This document shows positions 8,234-20,176 of a DNA stretch of 64,000 nucleotides, piece by piece. The notes beneath the pieces were generated by a model. It was not told where the DNA came from. It saw only the letters and a list, made by a program, of their open reading frames with translations, and made no database searches. The DNA is from Bacteroidota bacterium (lineage in GTDB: Bacteria > Bacteroidota > Rhodothermia > Rhodothermales > UBA10348). The stretch spans positions 37,273 to 101,272 of the forward strand of contig JAJCYP010000110.1 of NCBI GenBank assembly GCA_029262855.1, read 5' to 3'. A program made the position numbers and the translations under genes. Every line of letters begins with the position of its first letter. The stretch's first letter is position 1.

Positions 8234-8309
8234 GCCAATGTAGCTCAGCTGGTAGAGCAGCTCACTCGTAATGAGCAGGTCAGCGGTTCGAGTCCGCTCA
8301 TTGGCTCCA
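8234..8309 (+). tRNA. tRNA-Thr (anticodon CGT), encoded CCA
   Basis: Cloverleaf read by eye: GCCAATG-TA-GCTC-AGCTGGTA-GAGC-A-GCTCA-CTCGTAA-TGAGC-AGGTC-AGCGG-TTCGAGT-CCGCT-CATTGGC-T-CCA. Confidence 0.96.
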
Positions 8310-8321
8310 CTCTGGAGGACC

Positions 8322-8360
8322 AGTAAAACGCCGTTTCCGATGCCGGGAGCGGCGTTATTG
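8322..8360 (+). terminator. Hairpin downstream of tRNA-Thr
   Basis: aaAACGCCG...CGGCGTTatt inverted repeat. Confidence 0.5.
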
Positions 8361-8410
8361 CGTTTGGGTGGAGCGGTAGTGATGGAGTGTTGCTCCCGGG
8401 TGGACCGATC

Positions 8411-9052
8411 TCAATAGCTGCGGCCCCGACGCCAGTATCCGAAGAACACCTCGCGCAGATCGTGAACCAAGCTCGGATCGCTGAAGAAGGTGGCCACTTC
8501 AGAGGAGCGGTCGGCGGACGCCTGCGTGAAGTTGGCGCTACCGTTCATGGCCGTCGTGTCGGTGACGAGGAACTTCGCGTGCAGGTCGGAGAGGGTGCGG
8601 AAGTCGACCCCTGAGCGTTGCGAGGCCTTCACGATGCCCCCGGTCAGGTTGTCGCTCCGGAACAGCAGCCGCACCTCGACGCCGCGGCTGGCGGCGGCGA
8701 GAAGCTGACCGAAGACCGGCGGCGGAGAGGCGGACACGAAGGCCACCGCGGCTAGTATCTCGTAGCGCGCTGCTTGCAGCATTCGCGCCATGTGGCGGTA
8801 AATCTCGCGGTCAACGAAGTGGCGGGGTCCTGATCCACCCGGCGAAGTCGCCCTAAACCTCTGCAGCCGGGAGTAAACATTGGACAGGCTGCAGCCGAGG
8901 CCCGCTGCCACCTGCTTCTTGTCCTCGGATCGCAGGGTCGACCAGAGCCGGTTGGGCGTCCATGAAATGCGCTTGTTCCTTGCTGCCCGGGGCAAATTCC
9001 TGGGGCGGTCGCTCTTGTGGGTCTTGTCCGTCGAAATGGGATTGAGAGTCAT
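8411..9052 (-). CDS. Phospholipase D-fold protein with putative N-terminal DNA-binding region
   Basis: HAKFLVTDTTAMNGSANFTQAS (single HxK...GSxN PLD motif); N-terminal 'SEDKKQVAAGLGCSLSNVYSRLQRF' resembles an HTH. Confidence 0.75.
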   Translation of the reverse strand: MTLNPISTDKTHKSDRPRNLPRAARNKRISWTPNRLWSTLRSEDKKQVAAGLGCSLSNVYSRLQRFRATSPGGSGPRHFVDREIYRHMARMLQAARYEILAAVAFVSASPPPVFGQLLAAASRGVEVRLLFRSDNLTGGIVKASQRSGVDFRTLSDLHAKFLVTDTTAMNGSANFTQASADRSSEVATFFSDPSLVHDLREVFFGYWRRGRSY

Positions 9053-9466
9053 ATTCCACCTAATTGATAAGAATCGTCCCGTCCGGGTGGAATCGTGGGC
9101 CAGATTCCACTTCCGCCGCCATCAACGCAGGCCCTGAAGTGGAATACGAGGCGGCTTTTCCACTTGAGGATGTTGCTCGCGAGACCTAGCCGTGAGAACG
9201 GGAAAAGGTGAGTCGATACCTGCGCCGCTACCTTTGGAGGAGCAAACCTTACCGTTGGTAACGCCGCCGCGCCCGTCGGACTTACGAAGCTTTGGTTATC
9301 CTAAGGCGCTTCTCGTAAGCCCTGAGGGCATCATCCTCGAAGAGAAATTCAACCTTCGAGACAGAGCCCTCGACAGCACCCTCGTGGTCCGCCCCGGCAA
9401 ATAGACAATTCGTCGACAAGTCCACGCCGTTAATGCCGTAGCATTGGACTGAGCCTCGCCAGACGC

Positions 9467-10690
9467 ATGCCCATTCGCTCGATCATATTGCTGCTCGCGA
9501 CCGTCGTAATTCCAGGGCTGGCGCTGGCTGCGGTTGGTGCTGTGCTGGTGCGACAACACGGTGAACTTGGCGAGCGTCGGATGGAAGACCAGGCCCGTCT
9601 CGCAGCGCGTGAGGCGGCAGACTCACTCCAAGCGCTTCTCGCGTCTCGGGCCCATGCAGTAGATCCAGAATCAAGCCAGCGGTACCCCGCTTCAAATGGC
9701 GTCTTAAACCTCGGGAGGATTGCTGATGGCGAATACCGCCTCCCCTTCCCACCGATTTCCTCCACCTTCAGGGAGCAGGCATTCCAAAGAACGCTGAACA
9801 GGCTTCGAGAGGGCGGCACGGCAAGAGAGTATCGGGAGGCTTCCGGACGCGCCCGGCACCCTGACCAAAAGGCCTTTCTGGAGATTGGCGAGGCGGCCGA
9901 GCGGGGAGAAGCCACGGAGGCAGCGCTTGCACAGGTGTCGTCCGGCACCAGATTCGTGGACGAATACGGGATCCCTCTGTCGCTCTGGGCTATGGAGGCA
10001 ACGGACCGGCGCGATACCACGTTTTCCTCGGAGGAGTGGCTGACCTTCAGCGCGATCGCCTACGCGCGGGATCTGGGTGTCGATGGCTTCGCCGCCGGCG
10101 AGCACGAACTGCTCGCGCACGTTCGCAATCGCTTCGAGGGCATTGAGGCTTGGCGCCTCAGCCCGGACTCAACCTGGATGATCCGCCGCATTGATGACGC
10201 CTTCGTTGGAATTCGCATCGATTCGGCGCGCGCCATCGCATCGAGCATCCGGGGTATCGATTCGGTTGCCATAACGTCGGGCGCCCAGACGTACACGCTG
10301 GCACCAACCTTCCCCTACCTGCACGCCTCCATTGCAACAGACGCAGCCGCGACATCATCGCTCCTCTGGATGATTGCCCTCGGGCTCGTAGCGCTTGTCA
10401 TGGCGTTCGGCGCCCTCAATCTGTTTCGAGACGCGCGCCGCGAACGACGTCTCGCCCAACTCCGCGCGGGGTTCGTTTCATCCGTCAGCCACGAGGTGCG
10501 AACCCCGCTCGCGGGCATTCGACTCCTGACAGACAGCATGCTGGCCTATGGTCCGGGGTCCGACATGGAATGGCGAACGGACCTGGAAACAATCTCCTAC
10601 GAAACGGATCGGCTCACCAGGATGCTGGATAATGTTCTGCGTGCATCCAGGATCGAACGCGGAGCGGATCGCTCATGGGCATCCACATGA
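9467..10690 (+). pseudogene. Sensor histidine kinase, truncated after the HisKA (H-box) region; no ATPase domain
   Basis: Signal/TM segments, then GFVSSVSHEVRTPLAGIRLLTDSML...RLTRMLDNVLRASRIERG; ends without N/G boxes. Confidence 0.75.
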
Positions 10691-11190
10691 AGACTGGGGT
10701 TGCTGACTCCGTCTGGTGTGTCGAAGATTCGCCGGGCCCCCGCTACTTCTCGCATACCCTTTCTCCGGACCAATCTCAGATACTGATCGAGCGCGGACAC
10801 AACTGGGGCGGTAATGATGTGACGAACGTGAGACTGGAGCTTCTGGAAATTGCCGACGGAACCGTTCGCATCATTCTCGATCAGCAGACACCGGGAGCAA
10901 ACGGCGGGTACTTAGGCTGGGCAAGCTGGATCGGCAATGACGCGCTCCTGGTAGCAGAACGCTCCAGGTCAAACATCAACGACACCATCAGTCTAAGCGT
11001 CCTGGATCTGGCGTCAGGAGAGCGCCGCCCCGTTCTTGAGCGTTTCGTGGATATGTTCACCCCAAGGGAGGTCTCGGTCAGTGACGACCGACGTTACCTA
11101 CTAGCGGTTGGCGCACCCCGCAAGATCGGGGAGGACACGCGCCTGGCAACCATCATTCATCGGGCGGTCGAAGCGCGCGCCGACCAGTAG
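10675..11190 (+). pseudogene. C-terminal fragment of a beta-propeller/WD40-like protein
   Basis: Repeat-like 'HTLSPDQSQILIERG...SVSDDRRYLLAVGAP'; no plausible N-terminal domain. Confidence 0.45.
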
Positions 11191-11408
11191 CGGCTGGACG
11201 GGGACCAGGCTACTCTCGGCTGTCCGCGGCGGCATGAGTTGGCGTTCGAGAGGACGCTTACAGTCCAGCGATGGGGCTCACAGCTAGGGATCCGTTCCCG
11301 AAGGGGTTCCCGAAATACCGTCTAAACCTACCCTGATCTACCCCGATCTGCACACCCTAATCGGCCAATACGGCTATTCTGGACCGTTTTCGCCCCCATC
11401 ACCATTTT

Positions 11409-11453
11409 CTCGTAATGAGCAGGTCAGCGGTTCGAGTCCGCTCATTGACTCCA
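11409..11453 (+). repeat. Duplicated 3' end of tRNA-Thr (att-like direct repeat)
   Basis: 44/45 identical to 8265-8309 (single difference at 11448), both ending in CCA. Confidence 0.93.
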
Positions 11454-11455
11454 GG

Positions 11456-11490
11456 CGCCCCAACGACCTATATGGTTGTTAGGGCGTTTC
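11456..11490 (+). terminator. Rho-independent-like terminator after the tRNA fragment
   Basis: CGCCCcAAC...GTTaGGGCG stem followed by TTTC. Confidence 0.6.
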
Positions 11491-11562
11491 GTGTTGGGTT
11501 TGCACAGCGTCGCCCCACTACGCCCCCCGCCAGGAGAAAGATGCCCAGCGGAACCCGCCTGT

Positions 11563-11793
11563 ATGGGATCCGGTTTCTTACCCGTGTCCAATGCTCACAA
11601 GTCTCCGTCCCCGCCCAATCGCTCCATTGAGCGTGTTGTGAACAAAGCCGAGAGCTTCGAGGCGGCCGACAGGTGGGATCGTGAACAGCACCTTTCGCTA
11701 TCGCCTCAAGAGCGGATGAGCGCGGCTCGAATCCTGAAAATGAGAGCCTTCCCCGCGGATGCTCCGGATGTTCGGAAATGCCACGGCAGATAG
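11563..11793 (+). CDS. Small partner protein of nucleotidyltransferase (antitoxin-like)
   Basis: ESFEAADRWDREQHLSLSPQERMSAARILKM resembles the small ORF at 17963-18178; overlaps the NTase start by 16 nt; exact start uncertain. Confidence 0.55.
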   Translation: MGSGFLPVSNAHKSPSPPNRSIERVVNKAESFEAADRWDREQHLSLSPQERMSAARILKMRAFPADAPDVRKCHGR

Positions 11794-12266
11794 CGGCCTC
11801 GCACTTCTCGCCGGATACGGCGGACTTCATACGCCTGCTCCAGAAGCACAGCGTGCGTTATCTCATCGTCGGAGGAGAGGCAGTTATCTATTACGGCTAC
11901 GTCCGCCTGACCGGAGATGTTGACTTCTTCTACGATCTGGCGCCGGAAAACACGGAGGGTCTCTTTGTTGCCCTGGCTGAGTTCTGGGGTGGAGACATTC
12001 CGGGCGTCAGGACGGCAAGTGACCTCAGCCGTCATGATCAGGTCTTGCAATTCGGTCGTCCACCGAATCGGATCGATCTGCTGACCAGGATATCCGGCAT
12101 CTCCTTCGCTGATGCTTGGAGCGGTCGAGAGCGTGTCGAACTGGTTCTGGAAGGTGATGAGCGAGTCCCGATGCAGTATATCGGGCTCCCGCAACTCCTG
12201 GTGAACAAGCGGGCGAGCGGAAGGCCGAAAGACCTCGATGACCTGAGCTTCCTCAGCGGGTCGTGA
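11778..12266 (+). CDS. Nucleotidyltransferase-fold protein (toxin-like, DUF6036/AbiEii-type fold)
   Basis: YLIVGGEAVIYYGYVRLTGDVDFFYD NTase motif. Confidence 0.8.
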   Translation: MPRQIAASHFSPDTADFIRLLQKHSVRYLIVGGEAVIYYGYVRLTGDVDFFYDLAPENTEGLFVALAEFWGGDIPGVRTASDLSRHDQVLQFGRPPNRIDLLTRISGISFADAWSGRERVELVLEGDERVPMQYIGLPQLLVNKRASGRPKDLDDLSFLSGS

Positions 12267-12315
12267 GGCGTGGCGTGAGTACGGAGCGGGCGGCTTGATC
12301 GTGCAGAGGTGACCC

Positions 12316-12555
12316 TTATTTCGTCCACTGCCTGCCACACGAGCCCGGAAACGGTAGTCTCCCGGTCAGCATCTCACACAGCACCGCGCCCAGGCTCCAT
12401 AGGTCCGTCCTGTGGTCCACCTCTTCGCCGCGTGCCTGCTCCGGGCTCATGTACGCAATGGTGCCAACCGTGGACCCCATCTGCGTCAGTTTCGTGGAGG
12501 CGTCCTTCTTGGCGAGCCCGAAGTCGAGCACCGGGGCGGCTCGAGGCCCGTTGCC
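12316..12555 (-). pseudogene. Serine/threonine protein kinase fragment (DFG to subdomain IX)
   Basis: [61 protein letters not shown]; lacks the N-lobe and catalytic loop. Confidence 0.8.
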
Positions 12556-13749
12556 TCAGTTCGGCTCTGATAGCCGCTCTGCCACGAAGTAGAACAACTC
12601 GGTCCAGTCGGCGTCGCCCCAGTCCCCGCGGTCGGGACCATCCCGGACGAAGACCACGTCGTGTTGCGGCGATACGCAGATGAATTGGCCGAACCGGCCG
12701 ATTCCACAATAGTCGGGTCGCCCAGTAGGGCGGGGTATGACCCACCAACCGTTTCGATACCACCAGCGTTGTCCATCGAACGACTCTACCTCCATGGTGT
12801 CTCTGAGAACGGTTGAATCCCAAACCCAAGCTTCCTCGAGAATCTGCCGGGTCCCGTTTGGTGCCCGCCCATCGTTCAGGTAAAGCATCCCAAATCTGGC
12901 CAGGTCTCGGGCCGTCGCGTGGAAGCCGCTTTCCATCCGCTCAAAGCCCAGATCGTCGGTCGACCAGCCTGCCGCGGAAGCGGCTCCCATCGGTTTCCAG
13001 AGCTCCCGCTCGAGGAGTGCGGAAGGCGTGAGCCCGGTAGCTCGCCGGAGAATCAGTCCGAGGAGTGGAGGGTTGTAGTGGTTGTACTCAAACGTGCCTG
13101 GCGCCATCTCAATCTCTGAGCGTTCCAGGAGGAGCGACTCGAGGTCCGGGAAGTAGTATGCCAAGGGGTCGTCGGCCGTCACGAACGGGAACTGTACGCC
13201 CGACTCGTACCGGACACCAGAACGCATGTCCAAGAGGTGCTCCACGGTGATGTCTGCGAAGCGCTCATCGCGCGCCTCGAGTTCCGGGAGAAAGCGTGTG
13301 ATTGGGTCTTCCGGCGCGAGCACACCGTCGCGAACGGCCAGGCCGACAAGGGCTGAGGTTATCGCCTTCGATACCGAGAACGAGTTCTGAAGCGACTCCC
13401 GGGTGTCTCCTTCCCCATACCGCTCGACAACAAGACTGCCCGCATGGACGACCAGAAATGCCGTCGTACGGGTTTCGCGGATCAACGTATCCAGACTACT
13501 TACGTCCGGGTGCTGCTCGATGACGCCCACCGCTCTCGGATCGGCTGTCGACGGCAGGGGTCCGGGCTCCTCGGCGGGGGCGATGCGGCTGGCTGGGAAT
13601 CGGTGAATGTCGTCGTAGTCGGCATCCTGAAAAGCGAGTACCCGATAGATATACGTGAGCGGGTAGTTCCGATTGAGCCAAAGCAGCCCCAGGAGCAGGA
13701 GCGGCAAGGTCACAACCAAGACTTTCCACCGGGCGGAGAGGTCACTCAT
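12556..13749 (-). CDS. Serine hydrolase, beta-lactamase/class C family
   Basis: NSFSVSKAITSALVG (SxxK), EYNHYNPPLLG, N-terminal TM. Confidence 0.88.
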   Translation of the reverse strand: MSDLSARWKVLVVTLPLLLLGLLWLNRNYPLTYIYRVLAFQDADYDDIHRFPASRIAPAEEPGPLPSTADPRAVGVIEQHPDVSSLDTLIRETRTTAFLVVHAGSLVVERYGEGDTRESLQNSFSVSKAITSALVGLAVRDGVLAPEDPITRFLPELEARDERFADITVEHLLDMRSGVRYESGVQFPFVTADDPLAYYFPDLESLLLERSEIEMAPGTFEYNHYNPPLLGLILRRATGLTPSALLERELWKPMGAASAAGWSTDDLGFERMESGFHATARDLARFGMLYLNDGRAPNGTRQILEEAWVWDSTVLRDTMEVESFDGQRWWYRNGWWVIPRPTGRPDYCGIGRFGQFICVSPQHDVVFVRDGPDRGDWGDADWTELFYFVAERLSEPN

Positions 13750-14501
13750 CGTCGCGTCCCGAGGCGAAGATCTGCGTCTCCGACCATGACGGAGACCTTG
13801 ATTCGATCACGACCGCTACCACGTATCGAAACGCGGCTGCCAGGACCCGGAGGGTTGGGGTAATCGATTCGGCTTCCGTCCAACCAAAGGTCGGTGTCGC
13901 CCACCCTTGAACGAAGATCGACCTCGCCGTGCGAGTCGGTGCGTGTGTTGACCTCGACATTGCCGACGGTAACGTCTGCGTCTATGGCTCCCCGGGGAAC
14001 GTCGACCTTCAGGTCACCTGTCCCGAGTTTCACGCCGACTCCGCCCGCCACGCCAACGATGGCGATGCGTGCCGCGGCCATCCGCACCTCTACGGCCAGG
14101 CGGGCAGGTACAACAACGGTCCAGGTCTCGGTGACCTCCTCACGCCCTCGTCCTCCCGAGAGCTCAACCTGAAGCCGCCCGCCGCGCATGGAGGTCTCCA
14201 GTCGTGCATCCTCCACGTAAGCATCGCCGCGGGACGAACTGCGCATGAGGCCCTTCCTCTTGGACTTGATGTGCACCCGGATGCGAATGTGTTCTGTGTC
14301 ACCGACTTCGATGGCCACTTCGCCGTCGTGCCCGATCAGTCGAACGATTTCGACACCCGCGGCTGGTACATCGGCTGACAGTTCGCGATCCAGCGATGCT
14401 CGGCCGGTATTGGAGGCAGCCGCCAACGCGGGTGGTGGGGTGAAGGCCAGGACAAGCGCCGCGATCGTGGCAACTAGCATGGCGTGGGGTGAAGAGCGCA
14501 T
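13746..14501 (-). CDS. DUF4097-like secreted protein
   Basis: Signal peptide; repetitive beta-solenoid-like 'GDLKVDVPRGAIDADVTVGNVEVNTRTDSHGEVDLRSRVGDTDL'; 4-nt overlap with the downstream hydrolase. Confidence 0.6.
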   Translation of the reverse strand: MRSSPHAMLVATIAALVLAFTPPPALAAASNTGRASLDRELSADVPAAGVEIVRLIGHDGEVAIEVGDTEHIRIRVHIKSKRKGLMRSSSRGDAYVEDARLETSMRGGRLQVELSGGRGREEVTETWTVVVPARLAVEVRMAAARIAIVGVAGGVGVKLGTGDLKVDVPRGAIDADVTVGNVEVNTRTDSHGEVDLRSRVGDTDLWLDGSRIDYPNPPGPGSRVSIRGSGRDRIKVSVMVGDADLRLGTRR

Positions 14502-14610
14502 TATTCCCTCGGGAGTCTTGTTCGACGGCGATGTTAGGGCGTCCTGATGCCCAGATCGGCCGGATTGATAAATCCGTCAGTCGACTCTATCCAGTCGGTA
14601 GTCGCTACTC

Positions 14611-15750
14611 TCAGGAGTTGGAGGGGGCGGAACGGGAGCGCTGCTGGTATTGCGAGGGCGTGATGCCGGTCACGGCCTTGAATGCGGTATTGAAGGACGA
14701 CAGGGAGTTGAAGCCAACCTCCTGCGCGATCGCCGCGATGGTGAAGTGCTCCAAGGCCGGGTCTTCCAGCTGTTGCATCGCGTCCTCTACCCGGTATCCG
14801 TTGACGAACCGGGAGAAGTTCTTTCCGAGGTGTCCGTTTAGCAGCTGTGAAAGGAGGTGGGGTGACACGCCGATAGATCGGGCCAGGACCGGAAGGGTCA
14901 GGCTACCGTCCCGATATGGTTTGTCCTCGGCCATTACGGACTTGAGGCGCCGGACGTGTGCCTCGGCGTTCCCCGGATCTAAAGTCGAGCTGGCATACTT
15001 GGGTAATGCCAGCTCTTCCCCCGACAGAACATTTGGATGCCTTACCACCACGTAGCCCGCCGCAAGGAGGAACAGACTAATCGCCGCAAACTGCACGACG
15101 TCAGAGACGGATATGACCTCGAATGCAAAAATGAGATCATAGACCTCGAACACCCACAAGACCGCAAAGCCACTGGTCAGGCCAAGCATCAGTCGTTGCC
15201 TTCGGAGTCCAGCGGCCGTCGAGGCTCCCCCAACTCTGGCTAGTGTATGCCGATTGGCCTGCAGGACGCCTGATAAGATGATCAGGTACGCCAGATAATG
15301 CACCGCGACCAAGCTCCCGATCACATACGACTCGGTCGAAGCCCCAAGGAAGAGCCCAATCAAGGCGTCCATCTTGATGTCGGCCGCTTGTGCCAGTTGA
15401 GGGACGAAATAAACCTGGCAAATCGCGTAGGGAAGGAGGTGCAGGAGGTCCAGTTTTCCGACTCGGAAGCCCGGTCGAGTCAGCGCCCTGAAATAGAAGA
15501 GGAGGAGGGGACCATACAGGAATGGGATGGCCGCCGTCACCTGGAAGAGGTGGGGCAAGACCAGGATGTACCGAGAGTGGAACAGCACGCCATAGGCCAT
15601 CTCGAGTGAGACCACCAGGAGGAAGATGCCAAAAACCCGATTGGCTGTCGGGTTGCCTCGCTTGAGCGAGAGCAAGGCTAGAGACAGCAGCAGGGCCTGG
15701 GTCAGCCCCACAGAGATCAGGACGACCAGAAAGTCAATGTTGGTTTCCAT
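14611..15750 (-). CDS. AraC-family regulator with N-terminal multi-TM domain
   Basis: C-terminal AraC HTH 'HFTIAAIAQEVGFNSLSSFNTAFKAVTGITPSQYQQR'; hydrophobic N-terminus. Confidence 0.9.
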   Translation of the reverse strand: METNIDFLVVLISVGLTQALLLSLALLSLKRGNPTANRVFGIFLLVVSLEMAYGVLFHSRYILVLPHLFQVTAAIPFLYGPLLLFYFRALTRPGFRVGKLDLLHLLPYAICQVYFVPQLAQAADIKMDALIGLFLGASTESYVIGSLVAVHYLAYLIILSGVLQANRHTLARVGGASTAAGLRRQRLMLGLTSGFAVLWVFEVYDLIFAFEVISVSDVVQFAAISLFLLAAGYVVVRHPNVLSGEELALPKYASSTLDPGNAEAHVRRLKSVMAEDKPYRDGSLTLPVLARSIGVSPHLLSQLLNGHLGKNFSRFVNGYRVEDAMQQLEDPALEHFTIAAIAQEVGFNSLSSFNTAFKAVTGITPSQYQQRSRSAPSNS

Positions 15751-15813
15751 CGGGCGCGATCAGAGTGCGGCCTGTGACTCCAAGATAGTATGCACGCAAG
15801 CTGCGGTCTGGCG

Positions 15814-16011
15814 CTATTGCGCCGCAACCAGGTGCGCAAGTTCTTCCAGAGGGATCGCTTGTACGTCGTCCGAAATCGGGTAGGTCTCCGAGCCCGGGTA
15901 GACGACGAAAGAGCGGTCCGGTTGTACGTCCTCCCGGGCGTGGTGGAACCCGCGCCTGGGCCTTGGTGATAGGCTGGGTTTGATCTCTACCGCCCAGGTG
16001 GACCCACCCGT
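15814..16011 (-). pseudogene. C-terminal remnant of an AAA ATPase (DUF4143-type)
   Basis: Minus-strand read STWAVEIKPSLSPRPRRGFHHAREDVQPDRSFVVYPGSETYPISDDVQAIPLEELAHLVAAQ*, with an in-frame stop just upstream and no start. Confidence 0.65.
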
Positions 16012-16053
16012 TTAGCGAGGCTCTCGAGTCCGGTCGCGCAGGAGGCCTCCTCC

Positions 16054-16093
16054 AAACGCCCCAACGACACTATCGGGCGTTGGGGCGTTTCTT
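16054..16093 (+). terminator. Strong terminator hairpin
   Basis: Perfect 13-bp stem AAACGCCCCAACG/CGTTGGGGCGTTT followed by CTT. Confidence 0.75.
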
Positions 16094-16174
16094 GGCTTAA
16101 GGGACTAACCACCCGGCGCAACGTGCGCGACAGGGATTCCGTTACGCCCGGCCTCGCGTGCTGTCTATATTTAG

Positions 16175-16324
16175 ATGGTGGACCCGAAAGAACAGTGGGC
16201 GATGAAGCTCCGGGGCTACGAACTCGCGGAGGAGTATCGGGTCAGGGACCTGCGCAACCTAGGCCGCGAGGACTGGCTGGGTCAGATGCACCGCGTGCAC
16301 GGAGTCCGGGAGCCGAATGTCTGA
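16175..16324 (+). CDS. Small partner protein (49 aa) of nucleotidyltransferase
   Basis: MVDPKEQWAMKLRGYELAEEYRVRDLRNLGREDWLGQMHRVHGVREPNV*; below the ORF-track length cutoff; 21 nt upstream of the NTase. Confidence 0.5.
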   Translation: MVDPKEQWAMKLRGYELAEEYRVRDLRNLGREDWLGQMHRVHGVREPNV

Positions 16325-16345
16325 CTGTTTCAGTCCGCTCTGAGC

Positions 16346-16877
16346 GTGCAGCGAGCCCTGAAGAAAGGAGGGCTCGAGTTCTGCTTCATAGGCGGATTGG
16401 CTCTGCAGCGCTGGGGTGAGGTAAGGCACACCGACGACATCGATCTGGCTGTCTGGTGTCCTCTGGGGCAGGAGCGGCGGGTGGTTGAGGTCCTGGGTCG
16501 GACGATCACCTCGCTCGAGGAAGACGCCTGGGGTATGGCCAAGGTCGCCCGCATGTACCTGGGCCGATCCGAGGCAGGGCAAGGGGTGGACGCTTCACTC
16601 GCGTTCCTGCCGAACGAGCGTCGGATGCTGGACCGCGCCGTCGATGTCGACGTCGGCCTCGAGATGCCCCTGCACTGCTGCTCGGCCGAAGACGACTATC
16701 CTCAAGACCGTCGCCGGCCGTGGGCAGGACTGGGTGGATCTCAAGCGCATCACCCAGCGAAGTGGACGCGCGATGGACTGGGAACTGGTCTTGCGCGAAC
16801 TGGAGCCACTACTCGAAATGACCGGGCAACCGGAGTCCATGGATCGGCTGCGAGGAATCGTCGAGATCGAGCGGTAG
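16346..16877 (+). pseudogene. Nucleotidyltransferase-fold protein disrupted by a frameshift near 16690-16700
   Basis: Frame 2: FCFIGGLALQRWGEVRHTDDIDLAVW...HCCSAEDD; continues in frame 3: TILKTVAGRGQDWVDLKRITQRSGRAMDWELVLRELEPLLE*. Confidence 0.8.
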
Positions 16878-16901
16878 CCGTCCAGCCCGTCGACGTCCAG
16901 A

Positions 16902-17118
16902 ACATCGTGCCTTCCCGGTGGAAGTTGCCTTCCCAGAGAACGAAGAGCATCGCACCTTTGACCACGAACCGGTCGCGGTGCGGCGATCGACTGAGTCGGT
17001 AGAGGAAGCGCTCCAGCACGTAGCGCGTGAGAAGGGTCTGGAAGTCCTCTCCTTCTGCTCGCGCTCTGTTGAGGAGTCGCTGGTGCACTGATGCCGCCTT
17101 ATTGGACAACGAACTCAC
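16902..17118 (-). pseudogene. AbiEii-type nucleotidyltransferase toxin, N-terminal remnant
   Basis: NKAASVHQRLLNRARAEGEDFQTLLTRYVLERFLYRLSRSPHRDRFVVKGAMLFVLWEG is the AbiEii N-terminal pattern; the expected DLDLLG motif and the rest are missing. Confidence 0.8.
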
Positions 17119-17591
17119 GCGACAGCTTCAAGGTATGGGCGCATTACGTTGGAGACCCGGCAGAGCTTCGCGCTGCGCCAGAGGAGGTCAGTGTCGAAGC
17201 GGCTGCTTTGCCGAGAGTCGCGAAGCGCCTCGATGGCTATGTCGAGGCCGACCCGGCTCCGGTACTTGAAGCAGTCGGCCACTGTCTTCGCTGGGCCGAA
17301 TACCTTCACAGGGACCCCTTCGACTTCATGCGTCTCGACGCCCTCCGTGAATGCCGCGCCTGACATGTAGACGATGCGGAGCGAGAGTGTCTCCGACTCG
17401 GGTCGTCGCGCCTTCTGCTCGATAGCGAGCCAGAAGTCAACAGGATCCTGCGTTGTGAGGTCGTGGAAGCGGAGGGCTGAAAGAAGGCAAACGACTCCGT
17501 GAGGGACGCGGCGGGCAACCTCAGCCAGCGTGCGGTGCTCGGTCACTTCCGCGTCTTCAGCTTGGCGGCTGCGGTTTGGGCAAATGCTCAA
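17115..17591 (-). pseudogene. AbiEi-type antitoxin, C-terminal domain; N-terminal HTH missing
   Basis: TEHRTLAEVARRVPHGVVCLLSALRFHDLTTQDPVDFWLAIEQKARRPE...GPAKTVADCFKYRSRVGLDIAIEALRDS...CRVSNVMRPYLEA; 4-nt overlap with the AbiEii remnant. Confidence 0.85.
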
Positions 17592-18024
17592 GGTCGTTCA
17601 GGTCCTTGAGACGTCCGGTGCTGGCCTTGTTCGTCCGTAAACAGGCCAAGCCGATTATTTCTGCTTGTACGCCGGCAAAATCAGCGCCCACCCGATCACG
17701 ATAACAATCCGCGAACGTGACGCCAGGGATACGCGTCATGAACTCAACCCTCATGGGCGGATAGCCCAGACGCACGACTCGGTCAGGGTGCGCGAAGTCG
17801 GAGGGTTTGAGGGTCTCCATATCAAACCCGAATTCGGCGACGGCCGCATGGACCCGATCGGGGTTGGCGCCCTCGGTGTCTATCCAGATGTCGATGTCGC
17901 CGGTGGCCCGAGGAAACCCATGGTAGGCCACCGCAAACCCACCGATCACTAGATACCGCGCCTCATGAGCGTTCAATAATTTCAAGATGTCGCTGAACGC
18001 TTGCGGTAGCTGGATCGTGTCCAT
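17557..18024 (-). CDS. Nucleotidyltransferase-fold protein (DUF6036-like, toxin-like)
   Basis: YLVIGGFAVAYHGFPRATGDIDIWID. Confidence 0.85.
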   Translation of the reverse strand: MDTIQLPQAFSDILKLLNAHEARYLVIGGFAVAYHGFPRATGDIDIWIDTEGANPDRVHAAVAEFGFDMETLKPSDFAHPDRVVRLGYPPMRVEFMTRIPGVTFADCYRDRVGADFAGVQAEIIGLACLRTNKASTGRLKDLNDLEHLPKPQPPS

Positions 18025-18178
18025 AGTTCATCCGCCGAAGGAATTCGAGGCTTAGGAGACGTTCGGAAGGACTCTTGGAAAACCAATAGCGACGATCTTC
18101 TGCCTCTGCTTCTTTGAACGTCGTGACAGAAATCGAGCTTTTGTCCATCTCCTCTGGGGCTGACTGCTGTGTGTGCAA
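17963..18178 (-). CDS. Small partner protein of nucleotidyltransferase
   Basis: TFKEAEAEDRRYWFSKSPSERLLSLEFLRRMNYG; overlaps the NTase start by 62 nt, co-directional. Confidence 0.7.
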   Translation of the reverse strand: MHTQQSAPEEMDKSSISVTTFKEAEAEDRRYWFSKSPSERLLSLEFLRRMNYGHDPATASVQRHLEIIERS

Positions 18179-18211
18179 CGACTCAATGGGCGATGCGGTC
18201 CTGATGGACAG

Positions 18212-19645
18212 CTACCGGTCGCGCACCCCGTCCGATAGCCGGCCCAGCATCCCGTCCTCGCGCATCACGGCCTCAATCGCACCCGGCTCCACCGGAAGGA
18301 AGTCTGTGAAGTTCTCAAACCCGTCCTCGGTGATCACCACCACGTCTTCGGTCCGCACATAGAGACTCTCGGGACGCACCCACATCATGGGGTCGACGGC
18401 AAACACCTCTCCCACACGCAGCGGTGTCGACTTGTAGTTGCCAACATCGTGCACGGCGAGGCCGACCGGATGCTGCATGTGCCCGCGGAATGCGACTGCG
18501 TTCTGCGCGGCCTCGCGGTAAACCTCGCGCGACCATTTGTGCTCGTCCACGTACCGTTGCATGACGGCTGCCGAGCGATTGATGACCTGCTCCACCGTGA
18601 CGCCGGAGTGAAGCTCTGCAAAGAGCGCCTCGCGATAGGCCACGATGAACAGGTAGAGTTCCAGTTGTTCGCTGGAGAAAGTGCCATCGACCGGCCAGAC
18701 ACGGGTAACGTCGCTGGTATAGTAGCGGTACTCCGGAGCGAAATCCATCAGCACCAGATCGCCGTCTGCGAGCGGGGCATCGTTGTCGTGGTAATGGCCC
18801 ATGAACGCATGAGTCCCACCGGCCACGATGGCCGTGTAGGCATCACGGCGCGCGCCACCAGCCTGATGGACGAATCGCGCACAGGACTCGATCTGGTACT
18901 CCATGACACCGGACTGCGTGCACCGCATCGCTTCCATGAGGCCCTCGCCCGCCAGTTCCGACGCCCGCCGTATGAGGGCGATCTCTGCCGGACTCTTGAC
19001 CACACGCATCGCGTCCAGCGTCGGTGAGAGGTCGCGGACCTCGAACTGCGGATACCGCTCATGGATCAGTCCGATGAAGGCGCCTTCCCTCGACGGGCGT
19101 CCGTCCCAGGGGTCGTTGGTCACATTCGCCCGATACCGGAGTAGCTCGTCGCGACTGTCCGTACCGGTTTCAGCCGGACTGAACGGCGTATACAGCGCCG
19201 GGTGTGGAGAGCGGACCAGATACCGGTATACCCAGTCTCGCCCCATCTGCTCAATCGGAAGCACTTCATCGACCCCGGAAATGGAGATAACCGCGTCGAC
19301 GTCATCGGCGCTGAGCGTCTCTCCTTCGCTTCGCTCTCGTCCTGGGTCATGGTGCGGCAGGTACAGACTGGACCGACCCGAGCGCCCGTCCAGCACGAGG
19401 TAGCTGTGCCAGGTTTCGATTCCCGTCAGATAGTAGAGGCTGCTGGACTGCCGGAAGTACTTGAATCCGTCCACATCGGCGGCGCCCTGAATCACGGCGA
19501 TGGCGTTCGGTCCGATAGCCTCGACTACCTGCGCGCGCCTGGAAGTGAACTCATCCGCGGTGAAGTCCTGGTGCTGTGCGAGAGTCTTGGGCGGCGAGAT
19601 CAGGAGGAAAAGGAGTAGTCCAAGGAGAAGGGGCATGAAACGCAT
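18212..19645 (-). CDS. Xaa-Pro aminopeptidase (M24B)
   Basis: Secreted; GHYHDNDAPLADGDLVLMDFAPEYRYYTSDVTRVWPVDG, HPVGLAVHDVG, MMWVRPESLYVRTEDVVVITEDG. Confidence 0.92.
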   Translation of the reverse strand: MRFMPLLLGLLLFLLISPPKTLAQHQDFTADEFTSRRAQVVEAIGPNAIAVIQGAADVDGFKYFRQSSSLYYLTGIETWHSYLVLDGRSGRSSLYLPHHDPGRERSEGETLSADDVDAVISISGVDEVLPIEQMGRDWVYRYLVRSPHPALYTPFSPAETGTDSRDELLRYRANVTNDPWDGRPSREGAFIGLIHERYPQFEVRDLSPTLDAMRVVKSPAEIALIRRASELAGEGLMEAMRCTQSGVMEYQIESCARFVHQAGGARRDAYTAIVAGGTHAFMGHYHDNDAPLADGDLVLMDFAPEYRYYTSDVTRVWPVDGTFSSEQLELYLFIVAYREALFAELHSGVTVEQVINRSAAVMQRYVDEHKWSREVYREAAQNAVAFRGHMQHPVGLAVHDVGNYKSTPLRVGEVFAVDPMMWVRPESLYVRTEDVVVITEDGFENFTDFLPVEPGAIEAVMREDGMLGRLSDGVRDR

Positions 19646-20176
19646 GGCGAGGTCCAGGCTGGTGACATCCCCAATCTAGTTTCAGGGAGGCTACCGAGGT
19701 AGCCTGGCCGCAGGATGGCGACGATGTATGGGATGCCGTAATCACTTTTTCGGGGGAACTCGCGGAGCAGCAACTCGACCTGAGGTCCGAGCCGCCGATG
19801 TATCAAGGGAGTGCTCAGTAACCAGGCAAAATCAGGATACTATCCTGCGATTGCAGGGTTATAGTTCTGAGGTGGGTGGTGCAGAGCGGCCTCGGCCCGC
19901 GGCCAACATTTTCATTCAGCCGAGGGTCGTTCTTTCGATCATCCGAACGCGTGTTTTCACATGACCGCTCAACCCTGGACGTCCTACGAGCCGCGGCCGA
20001 AGCCGACCTTGTGGGGTTTGATGTTAGCTCAATCGGAAAGAGGACCGGGCACTCGCCGGGAATGCTTCACGCAACGAAGCACCAAAACCCTACACCAACC
20101 GTGTGGGCGGAGCCCTAAGAGAGGATTGGAACCATAGAACCCCGACACGAGAGGAGGTGAGAGCACGAAGCACTTC

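Follow-up and report, generated by a model that had tools for sequence, protein, structure and literature searches.

The 64-kb window analyzed here, part of contig C110 of genome G000 (4.7 Mb, 146 contigs), holds an intact tRNA-Thr(CGT) gene and, downstream of it, a second copy of that gene's 3' half. The locus raises the question of how the copy came to lie there, and of what kind of element, if any, the intervening DNA represents. The first-pass annotation had reported that the 3' end of the tRNA gene, encoded CCA included, is duplicated 3144 bp downstream at 44 of 45 positions, and had read the two copies as the attL and attR of a tyrosine-recombinase island. A repeat search agrees with the duplication, returning the copies as a 45-nt direct repeat (98% identity, same orientation, spacing 3144) that begins with the first anticodon-loop base and extends through the encoded CCA (Table 1). 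Because the runner-up direct repeat within the 5.2-kb stretch is only 21 nt long at 81% identity, chance is not a reasonable source of the 45-nt repeat. The downstream copy is also not part of a second genuine tRNA gene, a possibility that the annotation had raised against itself, since both ARAGORN and Rfam give tRNA-Thr(CGT) as the sole tRNA in the 64-kb window. The arrangement is that of a tRNA-associated island, with a 3' fragment displaced downstream of an intact tRNA gene and pointing the same way.

Table 1. Features of the tRNA-Thr(CGT) locus (window positions; functional names of element parts are predictions)
Feature	Position	Strand	Basis or remark
tRNA-Thr(CGT), intact; 3' part read as attL core	8234..8309	+	ARAGORN; Rfam RF00005, 71 bits
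45-nt core as attL copy, spanning the anticodon loop through CCA	8265..8309	+	Direct repeat
Probable left-end remnant, terminator-like hairpin	8310..8371	+	Similarity to left ends of relatives
PLD-superfamily protein with N-terminal HTH-like region (PLD-HTH), 213 aa, one HKD motif (HAKFLVTD...GSAN)	8411..9052	-	PF13091, E=9e-16
Three palindromes about 52 nt apart	9035..9163		9035-9058 (degenerate, overlaps PLD start codon); 9087-9110; 9139-9163
Truncated sensor histidine kinase, HisKA without ATPase domain match; cargo or debris	9467..10690	+	PF00512, E=5e-14, only passing match
DPPIV N-terminal beta-propeller-like fragment, probable debris	10675..11190	+	PF00930, E=0.01, below cut-off
Conserved element right end	11294..11408	+	83-86% identity to relatives, core included
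attP-form integrase tail ENGDGGENGPE-stop, read out of the core	11374..11408	-	Length, stop and residue pattern shared by five right ends
45-nt core as attR copy, differing by a single G-to-A change close to the 3' end	11409..11453	+	Direct repeat
Terminator-like hairpin after attR, probable original downstream flank of the tRNA	11454..11495	+	Sequence; such hairpins follow the tRNA or its copy in most relatives

The sequence just inside the second copy is conserved. When positions 9053-16500 were searched against Rhodothermales relatives, the 160 nt at 11294-11453 proved 83-86% identical to sequences in G004 (E=2.5e-46), G007 (E=7e-42) and G015 (E=5.6e-41), with a shorter match of 100 nt in G013, and all four matches sit exactly at a second copy of tRNA-Thr. 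Alignment of these right ends gives GTTCCCGAAGGGGTTCCCGAA, then the TACCCTGATCTACCC block, then the core; in the window, GTTCCCGAA repeats occupy 11294-11302 and 11306-11314 and accompany the conserved TACCCTGATCTACCC..ACCC block. A GTTCCCGAA pair lies at both element ends in G007 and G015, and these pairs are putative integrase arm sites. Judged by this alignment, the 115 bp inside the second copy are the conserved right end of an integrative element, which we term type I, and the window carries it directly next to the core. Rearrangement does occur in this genome, as contig C53 has a decayed 3' half together with scrambled pieces of the neighborhood, and a chance segmental duplication or rearrangement might likewise have copied part of the tRNA gene with no recombinase involved. 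However, the copy in the window begins exactly at the anticodon loop, stops at the CCA and directly adjoins a right end that is conserved between genera, which makes such an origin extremely improbable.

Relatives carry comparable duplications. A second 3' half of the same tRNA lies downstream in the same orientation at 22.8 kb in G007, 21.4 kb in G011, 15.0 kb in G015 and 11.3 kb in G004; in G003, G008 and G013 it is located on a separate contig. The annotation had proposed this search of related genomes for the repeat and the tRNA-Thr locus. These comparisons were made mostly on draft genomes, in which contig breaks hide some island ends. Gene order on the 5' side of the tRNA is kept in five genomes (G001, G008, G012, G016 and G033) and the 3' side is variable; the conserved order indicates that the tRNA side is old chromosome. 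The upstream neighbors are presumably genes for an M32-like carboxypeptidase and a glycine-betaine-type ABC transporter, names based for the most part on inspection of the sequences. Among the relatives, no clean empty site turned up. The same-genus genomes G001 and G002 carry degenerate left-end-like sequence at the tRNA, and downstream order varies, which precludes a direct comparison of filled and empty sites. The arrangement that had been named as evidence against an island, relatives with the same gene order and no empty site, was not encountered, as no relative has the downstream order without the repeat.

By these comparisons, tRNA-Thr(CGT) is an integration hotspot. An intact-looking 15-kb type-I element occupies G015:C2:619864-634900 (L064) and encodes an outer-membrane efflux protein, a CusB/HlyD-type adaptor and an RND pump. 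A second element family uses the same tRNA-Thr in G003:C18, G008:C143 and C59, and probably G004:C20; its end repeats are of the TGCAAGATATATGCAAG type and its integrase differs. Taken jointly with the reading of the window given below, it is very probable that type-I integrative elements use tRNA-Thr(CGT) as attB in this Rhodothermales family. Contig C53 of G000 (L019:2916-3585) combines its decayed tRNA-Thr(CGT) 3' half with scrambled pieces of window 11.3-18.2 kb and of the type-I right end. In G001:C7 (L024:8588-17000), tRNA-Pro(GGG) is followed by partial copies at 12820-12869 (50 nt, identical) and 16912-16943 (decayed); the region also has a 368-aa integrase and a truncated one, probably reflecting tandem elements, and a PLD-HTH gene lies just 5' of this tRNA-Pro(GGG).

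The cognate integrase is found in the relatives. In G015, a 439-aa tyrosine integrase is encoded directly after the tRNA, in antisense, and ends inside the tRNA gene (PF00589, E=6.5e-23); G013 has an integrase 85% identical to it in the same place, and G007 and G011 have integrase fragments. Antisense reading that leaves the core through the right end yields, in all five type-I cases (window, G004, G007, G013 and G015), a tail of equal length, xxGD[DG]G[DE][NS]xxE-stop, and the nucleotide differences among them include many synonymous third-base changes. Read antisense into the host tRNA, the core instead leads to SCST[SN]-stop. Because the two readings differ, the integrase would carry the conserved tail while the element is circular and a tRNA-encoded tail once it is integrated, and we infer that the tail would switch with integration state. 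The element right end in the window encodes this type-I tail. The left end there lacks the other mark of type I, a left arm with the cognate integrase, which is present in G013 and G015; the left arm repeat (GGTTCCCGAAGGGGTTCCCGAAG) is absent at 8310-8410.

What lies between the copies resembles neither an intact element nor one that could move itself. The annotation's description of a PLD protein and truncated genes with no recognizable integrase was borne out, in the form of a PLDc_2 match, a histidine kinase without an ATPase domain match and a weak DPPIV_N match. Domain searches found no integrase gene inside or overlapping the segment, which is therefore classed as a decayed remnant rather than an active island. 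The annotation had also suggested looking for integrase remnants in 8310-11408. A tblastn search with nine integrases as queries recovered no catalytic region there; the right end still encodes the tail at 11374-11408. A cognate integrase elsewhere in G000 can be discounted, because, compared with the G015 integrase, none of its 15 PF00589 matches rises above 37.5% identity, and those aligning over the greatest length reach only 24-27%. Of the left end, only a candidate remnant is left, followed at 8411 by the 3' end of the PLD gene. Similar sequence stands directly after the tRNA in G001, G002, G011, G013 and G015, and after the second copy in G007; in G013 and G015 the counterpart is the 3' end of the integrase gene. 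The remnant is mostly a terminator hairpin, related hairpins occur at unoccupied-looking sites, and native terminators of tRNA-Thr(CGT) look alike, making a native origin of 8310-8371 possible. A second histidine kinase with the layout of the one in the window was seen on contig C65 of G000 (L028), where the open frame likewise stops soon after HisKA.

An element without an integrase need not have lost one. A naturally integrase-less satellite, moved in trans by the type-I integrase of another element, would account for the retention of both cores and a complete right end, and the 11.3-kb island of G004, which has a type-I right end, likewise shows no integrase. Yet the missing conserved left arm, the lack of a close type-I integrase among the PF00589 matches of G000, the failure to see a second copy of the 3.1-kb unit in that genome and the debris-like contents of the segment all point away from a satellite, which we regard as very unlikely. 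The copy at 11409 could instead be the internal junction of a former tandem array whose right-hand element was lost or is contained in the fragments at 11454-20000. The next several kb past 11453 are rich in gene fragments, some of them common to G001 and to C53 of G000, which suits this account, and in G007 a type-I left end and an integrase fragment come after the second copy; G004 probably holds an array too, as its left end resembles the second family and its right end is type I. In the window, however, 11453 is not followed by a type-I left end, and the first 30 kb yielded no third copy of the core; we consider a former array improbable.

Together, the evidence supports with high confidence the interpretation of 8310-11453 as the decayed remnant of a type-I integrative element with tRNA-Thr(CGT) as its attB. 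In its intact form, the element would have had a tyrosine integrase gene at its left end, antisense toward the tRNA, with its 3' end within the attP core. This integrase would terminate in the right-end tail when the element is a circle, and in codons of the host tRNA antisense strand when it is integrated. The integrase would recombine the tRNA gene with the core (anticodon loop through 3' end); the incoming element would make the tRNA whole again at attL, and the 3' half that it displaced would come to mark attR at the far end. That the type-I integrase acted on these particular sites is inferred from conservation. The left arm and integrase body would then have been lost, presumably by deletion after integration although the breakpoint is not mappable in the window, leaving a 3.1-kb immobile island of both cores, the right end, the PLD-HTH gene and gene fragments. 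The island reading of the first-pass annotation is thus strengthened by the conserved right end, by the cognate integrase in G015 and G013 and by the encoded tail. Where it had offered a decayed, satellite or trans-mobilized element, the first is best supported, because neither the left arm nor the integrase body survives, G001 and G002 retain only degenerate left ends, and G000 has no close integrase; no positive evidence was found for the satellite or trans-mobilized alternatives.

The PLD-HTH gene within the island is rare, occurring in three of 396 genomes of the phylum (G000; G001, two copies; G010, three copies) and on one Gemmatimonadetes MAG contig (L088, SLCC01000141.1; genome G060). 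The L088 gene is 75% identical to that of the window and has degenerate palindromes upstream, and either transfer between phyla or a mis-binned contig could explain it. The copies are 65-78% identical, and pairwise dN/dS values of 0.15-0.34 among seven of them indicate that the gene is or was under selection. No relatives were found in viral contigs, and an AlphaFold model of the protein (mean pLDDT 45.6) was unusable. A role as a tRNA-targeting integration enzyme was considered and rejected: only two of six intact copies are near a tRNA, one of them on the wrong side, 5' of tRNA-Pro, and the window copy alone sits between tRNA repeats. A PLD fragment on contig C42 lies near tRNA-Ser without a tRNA repeat.

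Palindrome arrays accompany several of these genes. They are clear beside about half of eight PLD copies and weak or degenerate beside the rest; in the window and in G001:C7 they overlap the start codon of the PLD gene. Arrays that have these arms and a period of 51/52 nt lie dispersed across the genomes of G010 and G001, where the pattern GTGGAAN{10,13}TTCCAC has 46 matches (reversed control, 0) and 37 matches (control, 2), respectively. In G000 there are 5 matches (control, 3), at least three of them at the PLD gene or the C42 fragment, and 57 PLD-less genomes have 0-4 each; the Gemmatimonadetes genome G060, with one PLD gene, has one match to a related palindrome pattern (control, 0). In G010, arrays also form part of composite repeats, ~230-320 bp long, that are found at several loci. 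Dispersed arrays in G001 and G010 account for loci L092-L114, L117 and L143-L162, and tens of exact copies occur only in those two genomes. We take these counts as an apparent association between PLD gene and arrays in the two strongly positive genomes and draw from them no inference about protein action on the arrays. It is nevertheless tempting to speculate, as an idea we hold to be rather doubtful, that PLD-HTH recognizes and may spread GTGGAAT-N~11-ATTCCAC arrays of 51/52-nt period in a REP/RAYT-like fashion, with a PLD nuclease instead of an HUH transposase. The same data also suit a milder reading, in which PLD-HTH would bind DNA as a regulator with many operators. No literature linking PLD proteins to REP-like repeats was found.

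The island remnant is ordinary in kind. The comparison around it defines an integrative-element family in a group that has received little study, maps the family's target, right end and cognate integrase, and shows that integrase-less tRNA repeats can be assigned by conserved element ends. An integrase tail that depends on integration state is, in addition, a testable idea of control.

Set beside known systems, the locus shares with the tRNA-integrated tyrosine-recombinase islands defined by Islander (PMC4383910) an intact tRNA gene, a 3' fragment that has been displaced but keeps its orientation, an island in between and the anticodon-loop crossover class. Unlike them, the window segment has no integrase gene, which only its relatives carry, and the integrase filter of Islander would reject it. 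Integrases that reach across attP are on record, those of Mx8 and SSV among them (PMC4383910); the type-I integrase gene similarly ends inside the tRNA core, so that integration alters its C-terminus, but the host group is another and the function of the type-I tail is putative. The closest NCBIfam resemblances of PLD-HTH are to DISARM DrmC (51.1 bits against a cut-off of 133) and Dpd DpdK (31.7 against 100), both of which are also among its PADLOC matches, but with scores this far below the curated cut-offs membership in either family was rejected. Finally, like REP/RAYT systems (PMC2817692), the PLD locus pairs a gene with adjacent short palindromes; these are dispersed in G001 and G010, whereas the signal is weak in G000 and in G060, which also have the gene. 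It differs in that the protein is a PLD-superfamily HKD protein (PLDc_2) rather than an HUH/Y1 transposase, and in that the palindromes lack a GTAG-type head and form 51/52-nt arrays whose mobility is only putative. If the link between PLD gene and palindromes were true, it would add a second, unrelated kind of partner protein for dispersed bacterial palindromes.
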